Positions 8,653 to 33,029 of a stretch of 36,560 bases of DNA are shown piece after piece (the first letter of the stretch is position 1; the number at the start of each line of letters is the position of its first letter). The notes under the pieces are model-generated. The model was not told the origin of the DNA and did not search any database. It was given only the letters and a program-made list of their open reading frames with translations. A program made the position numbers and the translations under genes. Source of the DNA: Alphaproteobacteria bacterium (GTDB lineage Bacteria > Pseudomonadota > Alphaproteobacteria > UBA9219); contig JABDAH010000014.1 in assembly GCA_013289265.1 (NCBI GenBank), forward strand, positions 1-36,560. The letters are read 5' to 3'.

Positions 8653-8660
8653 TTAACCAT
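8653..8660 (+). promoter_or_regulatory. TTAACCAT box upstream of the Ppx-like gene
   Basis: TTAACCAT lies 88 bp before the TTG start at 8748. The octamer resembles the described CtrA half-site. By eye it occurs five times in this window, always intergenic and always upstream of plus-strand genes. No good -10 lies at the spacing seen for the copies at 31671 and 32333. Confidence 0.35.
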
Positions 8661-12029: not shown

Positions 12030-12037
12030 TTAACCAT
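12030..12037 (+). promoter_or_regulatory. TTAACCAT box just upstream of aspS
   Basis: TTAACCAT lies 23 bases before the aspS ATG at 12061, within the 100-148-bp divergent gap between the HExxH gene and aspS. It is the same octamer as at 8653, 18916, 31671 and 32333. Its position is too close to the start to sit upstream of a normal promoter, so it would act as a downstream site or be chance. Confidence 0.25.
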
Positions 12038-18727: not shown

Positions 18728-18965
18728 ACTAACCTCTCCATTAAAATCATGGAGTTACCATCGCAAGGCTCGTGCCAAACCTTAACTGCTTGATATATTT
18801 ATGTATGTAGCCACTGCAAAGAGCCAATCTGCCAAGAACTTCCCTAGATACCGGGCAGAAATTACCGCTACTTTCGCGTTGCTAATAGAAATAGTAAAGA
18901 AACGCCGTGATTATCTTAACCATTCGCCCTATAGTACCGCGTAGAGCTAGCCTAACTTATAAGGA
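18728..18965. other. 238-bp divergent intergenic region
   Basis: This separates the GGDEF gene (minus) from eipB (plus). Apart from the TTAACCAT box at 18916 and a TATAGT hexamer at 18930, it holds an AT-rich stretch near 18790-18806 and no hairpin with a T-run. I see no small gene. Confidence 0.5.
18916..18935 (+). promoter_or_regulatory. TTAACCAT box next to a -10-like TATAGT, upstream of eipB
   Basis: TTAACCAT at 18916-18923 is followed six bases later by TATAGT (18930-18935), about 36 bp before the GTG start of eipB. If TATAGT is the -10, a protein bound to the box would cover the promoter and probably repress. The related Brucella gene eipA is reported to be CtrA-controlled; control of this gene is inferred only from the octamer. 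Confidence 0.35.
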
Positions 18966-18971
18966 TTGAAT

Positions 18972-19844
18972 GTGCGGATTTTCCTAACCTGTCTCAGTCT
19001 GTTTAGTTTCGCATTTATTGCTCCTGCTCCCTCATTGGCAGCAGCGCTGGAAAAAGCGCTTCCGGCGGAAACTTTAGCGGTTACGGCAAATCATCCCGAT
19101 AAAATCACAATCGTACCTCACCGTGCCATCTATGATATGTCGCTGACTTCAGTCAAAAACGGCAGCAACATCAACGGCGTTTCCGGGCGTATGCTGTTTG
19201 AATGGTCCGATGTTTGCGACGGCTGGGCCGTGCAACAGCATCTGAAACTGCATTTTAGCTATTCTGAAGGTGACGAGTCCGATGTCAGCAGCACGGAAGT
19301 GACCTGGGAATCCAAGGACGGCAAGCGCTATAACTTCAATGTGCGCCGCGTCAGCGACGGCAAGGAAACCGAGCATTATGTGGGCAAGGCTGAAATGACC
19401 GCTGACGGCGGCACCGCAACTTATTCTGTGCCAGCATCCAAGACTGAAAAACTGCCTGCAGATACCTTATTCCCATCGGCGCACACGAAACTGATCCTGC
19501 AAAAAGCCAGTACAGGAGAAAAGCTTTTTACACGTCGCGTGTTTGACGGTTCTGACGATATAGGGTCTGACGATGTCAGCGCATTCATCAATGCCCCTTC
19601 CGCCACATGGCAGGATGCCGATACCAAAGGCAAAATGAAAAGCAACCCTTTGCTGTCACAATCCGCTTGGCCTGTCCGGCTGGCTTTCTTCAAAATTGAC
19701 AGCGAAACCGGTGAGCCGGACTATGAAATGAACCTTAACTTATTGCCTAATGGCATCGCCCGAACGATGCAGATTGATTACGGCGACTTCTCCGTAACCG
19801 GTACTTTAAGCGATGTAGAAGCCATTCCGGCACCTGGTTGCTAG
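18972..19844 (+). CDS. eipB: EipB family periplasmic envelope-integrity protein (DUF1849)
   Basis: The product is 290 aa from GTG 18972. I prefer this GTG to the TTG at 18966 because AAGGA ends at 18965, leaving six bases to GTG and none to TTG. A signal peptide ends near PSLAAA. The mature part starts VPHRAIYDMSL, then GVSGRMLFEWSDVCDGW, the DUF1849 signature, and continues with SDVSSTEVTWESKDGKRYNF and LPADTLFPSAHT. Brucella EipB is a beta-spiral periplasmic protein held by one disulfide. Here the only cysteines of the mature chain are in DVCDGW and at the extreme C-terminus (APGC), consistent with that disulfide. It lies 90 bp before divK on the same strand. Confidence 0.88.
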   Translation: MRIFLTCLSLFSFAFIAPAPSLAAALEKALPAETLAVTANHPDKITIVPHRAIYDMSLTSVKNGSNINGVSGRMLFEWSDVCDGWAVQQHLKLHFSYSEGDESDVSSTEVTWESKDGKRYNFNVRRVSDGKETEHYVGKAEMTADGGTATYSVPASKTEKLPADTLFPSAHTKLILQKASTGEKLFTRRVFDGSDDIGSDDVSAFINAPSATWQDADTKGKMKSNPLLSQSAWPVRLAFFKIDSETGEPDYEMNLNLLPNGIARTMQIDYGDFSVTGTLSDVEAIPAPGC

Positions 19845-31670: not shown

Positions 31671-31716
31671 TTAACCATATTATGAAGGATGAAAGTATTT
31701 CCTTATCTGTTATATT
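31671..31716 (+). promoter_or_regulatory. TTAACCAT box and -10 (TATATT), promoter of the first paralogous membrane protein
   Basis: TTAACCAT at 31671-31678 is followed by 32 bases and TATATT at 31711-31716, 35 bp upstream of the ATG at 31751. The same box and the same 32-base spacing to a TATAAT occur before the next gene at 32333-32378. No -35 hexamer is seen at the normal place in either, which suggests an activator-dependent promoter. CtrA or a relative is the first candidate. Confidence 0.5.
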
Positions 31717-31750
31717 GCGGCACAAGCATAGAAATTATGGGGACCTTAAT

Positions 31751-32308
31751 ATGAAGATCAATATGGATACAAAAAAAATTAGCGGCAGCCTTGCAGATTT
31801 CTCTATGCTGGGAATAGCCACAATGGCGGCAGGCATTATTACTGGCTGTATTATGGGTAATGGCTTCATAGTCCCCAATGACCGCGGTGAAGTTGTACCG
31901 GTCGGATGCGTTTCAGCAAATGGGGATCGGAACACATTCAAACTGGACGTTGCAATTTCGGGTTTCCTGCCTAACGGCAACGAAACATTGAAAAGAAAAA
32001 CTTTTATTATCAGTTCAGAACAGCTTCTGAATCTCGAGCGCGCTGGAAAAGATGCGGGCGGCTCGGGTTTAAAATTAGCCTGTCAAAAAGAAACTCCGAC
32101 CGGGCCATTTCCGCATGCGATTGACTATGGTTTTCATGTAGCGACAAAAGGTCCTGACCTTCCAGTATTGGGATTTCATCCTACCGTTGTTGCAACGGCT
32201 TCCAAGGATATCGACGCGTTAGAAACATACACCACAAACAGGCAACTAGGCTGTTTCGCACATGCAGGGTGCTTCACTCGAGTTCAAAAAGCCGACGGCC
32301 CAGCTTAA
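31751..32308 (+). CDS. Single-span membrane protein, unknown (paralogue A)
   Basis: The product is 185 aa from ATG 31751, chosen because GGGGA lies seven bases upstream; the frame is open to an ATG at 31649, but that would run through the promoter elements. A membrane helix (about residues 16-40) begins FSMLGIATMAAGIITG. It is followed by VVPVGCVSANGDRN, a beta-rich domain (TFKLDVAISGF, TFIISSEQLLNLE, LKLACQKE) and a His/Cys-containing end (GCFAHAGCF). The next gene shares the helix (ILGVTTIAGTAG), a Gly-Cys just after it and an IISEQ stretch, so the two look like old paralogues. I recognise no family. A periplasmic domain anchored by one helix is the likely topology. Confidence 0.68.
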   Translation: MKINMDTKKISGSLADFSMLGIATMAAGIITGCIMGNGFIVPNDRGEVVPVGCVSANGDRNTFKLDVAISGFLPNGNETLKRKTFIISSEQLLNLERAGKDAGGSGLKLACQKETPTGPFPHAIDYGFHVATKGPDLPVLGFHPTVVATASKDIDALETYTTNRQLGCFAHAGCFTRVQKADGPA

Positions 32309-32332
32309 ATAGGTAACGTAAAAATCCAACCT

Positions 32333-32378
32333 TTAACCATAAAATTGTTTATGCAACCATTTCATCTACCCCTATAAT
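32333..32378 (+). promoter_or_regulatory. TTAACCAT box and -10 (TATAAT), promoter of the second paralogous membrane protein
   Basis: TTAACCAT at 32333-32340 is followed by 32 bases and a perfect TATAAT at 32373-32378, 36 bp before the ATG at 32415. The spacing equals that before the first paralogue to the base. The intervening sequences differ, so this is not simply a recent duplication of the whole promoter. Confidence 0.52.
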
Positions 32379-32414
32379 TCCTTTACTTACTTTGTTAATA
32401 ACGGGGATTGTCAT

Positions 32415-33029
32415 ATGAGTAGTCGTTCATTTCGCAAAGGTTCATTGCGCAAGGATTCGCTAGGTAAATTATTAGGAGATGCCGCTCGTTTTACTTGCCG
32501 ACATTGGGGAGCTGCAATCCTAGGGGTGACAACTATAGCTGGAACAGCTGGAACGATTGACGGAACTCTGGAGCACATTAATATCAAACGGATTGATATT
32601 TATAAGGCCGCTGCAGTAATAGGTTGCGAACCGACAGATCCTAAACGCACAGATCCATCCGACCCATTTAGCAATTATAAAATAACTATCATCTCGGAAC
32701 AAGACGCCCTCACATTCAAAGCAAGAGAACTTGATGTTAGCAGCGTGAATCTTCGGCCAGATAACATGGCTGTCTTACGTGATGCATGTGTAAAAGGAAC
32801 GGCTGTAAGACTCCAACGCATAACACCCGCAATGAATATAGATTCTGTGGGAATAGTATTCGGGCCTCAAAATAATTTACGGCTGATTAGCGCGGAAATC
32901 CTGTCACCAGCGCAAACTGCAAAGGTCGACGCTCAAATTGATCGCGATCTGGCTGCCCATAAGAAATTCGACTGGGGCGCCAAATTTAAGTGGGCGTCCT
33001 CCCCAAGCAAACCCCATACGAACGGTTAA
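32415..33029 (+). CDS. Single-span membrane protein, unknown (paralogue B)
   Basis: The product is 204 aa. A basic N-terminus (SFRKGSLRKDSLGK) precedes a membrane helix at about residues 31-50 (WGAAILGVTTIAGTAGTIDG), a positive-inside arrangement that puts the rest outside the cytoplasm. The domain starts AAVIGCEPTD and has YKITIISEQDALTFKARELD, then VRLQRITPA and LRLISAEILSP, alternating strand-like segments. It is a likely distant paralogue of the 185-aa protein upstream. A GGGGA lies about ten bases before the ATG. No catalytic motif is seen. It ends 32 bases from the convergent nitrilase-family gene. Confidence 0.7.
   Translation: MSSRSFRKGSLRKDSLGKLLGDAARFTCRHWGAAILGVTTIAGTAGTIDGTLEHINIKRIDIYKAAAVIGCEPTDPKRTDPSDPFSNYKITIISEQDALTFKARELDVSSVNLRPDNMAVLRDACVKGTAVRLQRITPAMNIDSVGIVFGPQNNLRLISAEILSPAQTAKVDAQIDRDLAAHKKFDWGAKFKWASSPSKPHTNG

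Follow-up and report, generated by a model that had tools for sequence, protein, structure and literature searches.

Two adjacent orphan genes of an alphaproteobacterium are preceded by an apparent variant of the CtrA cell-cycle promoter shared across the lineage

Among the master regulators of the alphaproteobacterial cell cycle, CtrA has been studied most, yet knowledge of its promoter grammar comes from a few cultured groups. The DNA analysed here (36,560 nucleotides, hereafter the window) belongs to an alphaproteobacterial genome assembly of 1.49 Mb and 64% completeness, in which it is contig 14, and it contains two adjacent genes, A and B, each preceded by the octamer TTAACCAT and, at an identical distance, by a predicted -10 hexamer. 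The original prediction regarded this shared geometry as the mark of a duplicated, co-selected pair of membrane protein genes under one activator, possibly CtrA. The question raised by the locus is whether the geometry belongs to the pair or to the lineage. Our data favour the latter, and the box in front of A and B seems to be a variant form, spread across the lineage, of the known CtrA cell-cycle promoter.

All features of the two promoters lie on the forward strand. In gene A, the CtrA-type octamer (31671..31678) is followed after exactly 32 bp by the predicted -10 hexamer TATATT (31711..31716), and it would occupy approximately -52 to -45 if the hexamer is assumed to lie at -12 to -7. In gene B, the octamer (32333..32340) is followed, again after exactly 32 bp, by TATAAT (32373..32378), so that the predicted arrangement was confirmed at both genes. 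Predicted ribosome-binding sites, both GGGGA, were identified at 31739..31743 and 32403..32407, respectively, with the first G located 12 nt upstream of the ATG in A and at the same distance in B. The distance from the hexamer to the ATG, given previously as 35-36 bases, is indeed 36 in B (ATG at 32415), but it is 34 in A (ATG at 31751). The claimed lack of a -35 hexamer holds for B, in which nothing resembling one is present, while in A the promoter scanner returned only a poor candidate, ATGAAA. The presumed -35 region is occupied by the sequence TGAAAGTATT in A and by an apparent degenerate second copy of the octamer, GCAACCAT (32353..32360), in B. This copy starts 20 bp downstream of B's first octamer and ends 12 bp before the -10 hexamer, and a minor peak of TANNNT hexamers at a spacing of 11 from the octamer was observed in related genomes. 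The full CtrA site, TTAA-N7-TTAA, is absent from both promoters; each has a CtrA-type motif, in the form of the octamer only, upstream of a predicted -10.

The octamer is over-represented in the window (5 copies vs 1.1 expected) and in the genome, where 70 copies were found in the stretches available for counting (1.38 of 1.49 Mb in total), compared with 39-46 expected under Markov models. An A residue after the octamer is far commoner than expected, the extended form TTAACCATA occurring 44 times vs 9.5 expected. The shorter TTAACCA ranks among the top enriched 7-mers in the region from 40 to 120 bp before genes (35 occurrences, 11-fold enrichment). Among 43 intergenic octamer sites of this genome, eight have TANNNT at a spacing of 32, vs 1.1 per position, and six such sites remain when A and B are excluded. 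Related genomes gave a peak at spacings 31 and 32, with eight sites each among 150 octamer sites; the 16 sites compare with approximately 5 expected (2.6 per position on average), although this peak comes largely from a single genome. When the pattern TTAACCATN{14,44}TATAAT was searched for in 32 genomes of the order, 36 matches were obtained vs 6 for the reversed pattern, and 10 of the 36 have a spacing of 31-32 where approximately 2 are expected. In a class-wide search for TTAACCAT followed by TATAAT, the matches outside the order are dominated by AT-rich genomes, which match the control as well. Spacings of 22, 32, and 42 bp are suggestive of helical phasing. Since the spacing peaks recur in this genome and in its relatives, a distance of 31-32 bp is best regarded as the norm for CtrA-type promoters throughout this lineage, A and B being two examples.

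Several lines of evidence point to CtrA as the reader of the octamer. Equivalogs of CtrA (NF045991, 421.8 bits; cut-off 350) and of its inhibitor SciP (NF051866, 113.6 bits; cut-off 100) are encoded in the genome, and TTAACCAT is a published variant of the CtrA motif (PMC6180460). The sciP gene, a direct target of CtrA in Caulobacter (PMC4287350), has the octamer upstream in 11 genomes of the family (three exact copies and eight with one mismatch), followed in the same 11 genomes by a -10-like hexamer 31 or 32 bp downstream. No other evidence ties the layout to CtrA as strongly as this orthologous promoter does. In most of these genomes, TTAG-N7-TTAA is also present at approximately -38, and the sciP octamer at approximately -51 is therefore probably an additional, conserved upstream site. 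Such combinations of TTAACCAT-like boxes and TTAG-N7-TTAA were seen at the family sciP loci L163-L174 and L177-L185, while in the genus g8 the upstream region of sciP contains TGAAAGTA instead. The earlier suggestion of one activator, possibly CtrA, is thus well supported, by inference, by the CtrA equivalog, the published motif variant, and the layout at sciP, and likely control of both A and B by CtrA is the best reading of the sequences.

The promoters resemble the CtrA half-site activator promoters of Caulobacter crescentus (PMC4287350) in having a single TTAA-containing half site and a downstream sigma-70-type -10 without a good -35, and the two systems also share a CtrA gene and sciP among the targets. 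They differ in the position of the site. Activating CtrA sites in Caulobacter start near -35, with examples at -32, -39, and -49 (PMC4287350), whereas the 5' end of the site is placed at approximately -52 or -51 here, making the octamer an apparent positional variant located further upstream than is usual in Caulobacter. The fixed distance of 31-32 bp to the -10, the extended octamer TTAACCAT(A), and a second element, TGAAASTAWT, at many promoters (see below) are also unlike the Caulobacter half-site promoters. CtrA full-site promoters (TTAA-N7-TTAA) are represented in this family by sciP through its TTAG-N7-TTAA but not by A and B.

Gene A (31751..32308, forward strand) specifies an orphan protein of 185 amino acids with five cysteines and a predicted signal peptide. 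Its N-terminus has the features of a lipoprotein, i.e. a basic n-region, a hydrophobic stretch (residues 17-32), and the lipobox ITG-C33, conforming to [LVI][ASTVI][GAS]C, and A is probably a lipoprotein. Gene B (32415..33029, forward strand) specifies an orphan protein of 204 amino acids with a basic N-terminus, cysteines at positions 28, 71, and 125, and no lipobox; its hydrophobic stretch (approximately residues 31-48) is weak, and no 19-residue stretch exceeds 1.4 on the Kyte-Doolittle scale. The description of both products as membrane proteins is accordingly credible for A but poorly supported for B. The annotated frame is the only open one in both genes, and its coding score is positive (+0.167 in A and +0.058 in B) while those of the other five frames are negative, suggesting that A and B are real but atypical genes; for comparably sized genes of the same genome, the median score is 0.25 and the 5th percentile 0.03. 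As to the function of the two proteins, the best guess is a role in the envelope or at the surface, which is also the least certain of our assignments.

A and B are orphans in every collection searched. Neither a six-frame search across the order nor searches of GTDB contigs (with a concatenated A+B query) and viral contigs yielded a homologue, none was accepted in 385 genomes of the class, and no match was obtained in Pfam, PHROGs, NCBIfam, or the PDB. Two weak matches to B in the class (L273 and L274) were rejected since they are stop-ridden stretches that were not read as genes. The homologous pairs expected in other alphaproteobacteria were not found in the order, class, or GTDB searches. 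Genomes of the order retain the arrangement fabD-fabG-ABC1 kinase-pntA-pntB, with fabG and the ABC1 kinase gene often next to each other; in the window these two are separated by A, B, and a CN-hydrolase gene, apparently through a lineage-specific insertion. By the ABC1 protein, the closest sequences are from alphaproteobacterial MAGs, followed by Azospirillum. In a related genome (G006; L040, 8085-8840), the fabG-ABC1 junction contains two other small tandem transmembrane proteins with similarly spaced cysteines, whose BLASTP comparison was not significant and whose DNA has a G+C content of 0.48 vs 0.61. The presence of these genes suggests that the junction accepts lineage-specific genes.

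The claim that A and B are paralogous is not supported by their sequences, and neither is the paired envelope function suggested originally supported by the data. A BLASTP comparison of the two gave E = 0.28 over 24 residues, shuffling of the local alignment gave p = 0.25, and a phmmer search with A against every ORF of the genome did not return B among the hits with E<5. One global-alignment setting was favourable (p = 0.01, rank 2 of 243), but nine settings gave p values of 0.03-1.0 and ranks of 11-282. Thus, no significant sequence or profile similarity that would place the two in one family was detected. The shared motifs described originally, LG-[IV]-[AT]-T-[IM]-A, GC, and IIS-E-Q, are present in the same order in both proteins, but the GC directly after the helix of A contains the lipobox Cys33, and it is Cys53 that is collinear with Cys71 of B. 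These motifs are short and were picked after both sequences had been seen. The proteins could nevertheless be ancient duplicates that retained one promoter layout while diverging beyond recognition. Their tandem arrangement on the same strand, their similar lengths, the three motifs, and the single favourable alignment setting would fit such an origin, as would the two single-sequence AF2 models, each of which starts with a helix and continues with strands and another helix; their mean pLDDT (38 for A and 35 for B) is too low for a fold comparison. Given the lack of robust similarity in the searches above and the restriction of the lipobox to A, we consider common descent unlikely. Moreover, since the geometry is lineage-wide, two unrelated genes would share it too and duplication is not needed to account for it; reading it as the mark of a duplicated, co-selected pair is not supported.

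Other explanations concern the octamer itself. If CtrA acted at these sites as a repressor, or if the sites merely titrated it, the octamer would be negative or without effect and transcription would depend mainly on the -10 and other factors. Half sites of CtrA that overlap the -10 can be repressive, and pilA is repressed from CtrA sites located upstream (PMC4287350, PMC11264516). At A and B, however, the octamers do not cover the -10 but lie upstream of it. Both promoters lack a good -35, as would be expected if they depended on an activator, and the fixed spacing of 31-32 bp fits contact with the polymerase; we therefore rate a negative or neutral role as slightly less probable even than common descent of A and B. 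The reader of the octamer might also be an OmpR-family regulator other than CtrA, as the genome encodes further response regulators of this type. This is improbable in view of the published CtrA motif variant, the strong CtrA equivalog, and the conservation of the layout at sciP, and CenR binds TGA-N8-TGA (PMC9275681). Finally, with TTAACCAT expected 1.1 times per window and TANNNT being common, the box and the -10 could have met by coincidence in AT-rich intergenic DNA. The enrichment and the spacing peaks in this genome and its relatives, in which A and B were not counted, make coincidence very improbable.

We therefore favour, with a probability of approximately 0.68, the reading that A and B are separate, lineage-restricted genes, each with its own CtrA-activated sigma-70-type promoter and with a second factor acting at A. 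From the data above we infer how CtrA binding and activation, and the timing, localization, and function of the two products, may fit together. A and B would have been inserted between fabG and the ABC1-kinase/pnt genes, and each would be transcribed from its own sigma-70-type promoter lacking a useful -35. Phosphorylated CtrA would bind TTAACCAT at approximately -52 to -45 and help RNA polymerase at the -10 located 32 bp further on, and the fixed distance of 31-32 bp would ensure that CtrA sits on the correct helical face. A second factor probably occupies TGAAAGTATT in the -35 region of A, and at B the degenerate second octamer may fill that position. Expression of both genes would then follow the CtrA phase of the cycle (swarmer/predivisional), with A exported as a lipoprotein and B either membrane-anchored or peripheral. 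If so, genes without relatives can carry the ready-made regulatory layout of their lineage.

The unexpected and new finding of this analysis, and its more interesting by-product, is an order-specific class of composite promoters that combine TTAACCAT with TGAAA(G/C)TA(A/T)T. In gene A, the second element, TGAAAGTATT (31690..31699, forward strand; consensus TGAAA[G/C]TA[A/T]T), would lie at approximately -33 to -24, the usual place of a -35. In this genome, GAAA(G/C)TA is concentrated between 54 and 103 bp before start codons, where it is preceded by T and followed by (A/T)T. A search of 32 genomes of the order for TTAACCATN{0,30}GAAASTAWT gave 52 matches, and one for the reversed control gave none; with a slightly stricter pattern in 386 genomes across the class, matches outside the order numbered 3 vs 4 for the control. 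In 27 distinct composite cases, the gap between octamer and element is mostly 12-15 bp, and 7 of the 27 have TANNNT 30-33 bp after the octamer. The promoter of A belongs to this class, with a gap of 12 to GAAA, and that of B falls outside it. Further composite sites in this genome were found on contigs 1 (53988), 9 (47102), and 24 (7718).

The class suggests a CtrA partner regulator peculiar to the order; a literature search on TGAAASTAWT returned nothing relevant. Promoters co-regulated by CtrA and SciP or by CtrA and MucR are comparable in that a CtrA site and the motif of a second regulator are combined in one promoter, but TGAAASTAWT is unlike the SciP motif GCGNC and is confined to this order. 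At somewhat less than even odds, we propose that many CtrA promoters of the order follow a lineage-specific composite code, consisting of TTAACCAT at -52, approximately 12-15 bp, TGAAA[G/C]TA[A/T]T over the -35 region, approximately 10 bp, and the -10, through which an undescribed partner regulator and CtrA draw recently arisen orphan envelope genes, for example A, into the cell-cycle programme. For an order known largely from metagenome assemblies, these data thus point to a CtrA octamer that lies upstream of its usual position in Caulobacter, at a fixed distance from the -10, and to a second conserved element at many promoters, and the composite promoters provide a concrete lead to the missing partner of CtrA.

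Octamers were also observed at other genes. Four orphan proteins with a predicted membrane helix are encoded directly behind TTAACCAT in this genome (C19:9988, C9:25223, C5:25766, and C6:34646); a family of octamer-driven orphan transmembrane proteins was considered but rejected, as they show no convincing similarity to one another or to A and B. The five octamers of the window are all on the forward strand. One, at 8653, precedes a Ppx/GppA-like gene, and another, at 12030, lies 23 bp before the start of aspS. At 18916-19844, TTAACCAT is located 42 bp before an EipB-like gene (PF08904), which is followed by divK-like and pleD-like genes; this octamer has TAACTT at a spacing of 29, and the EipB-like gene is a likely CtrA target.
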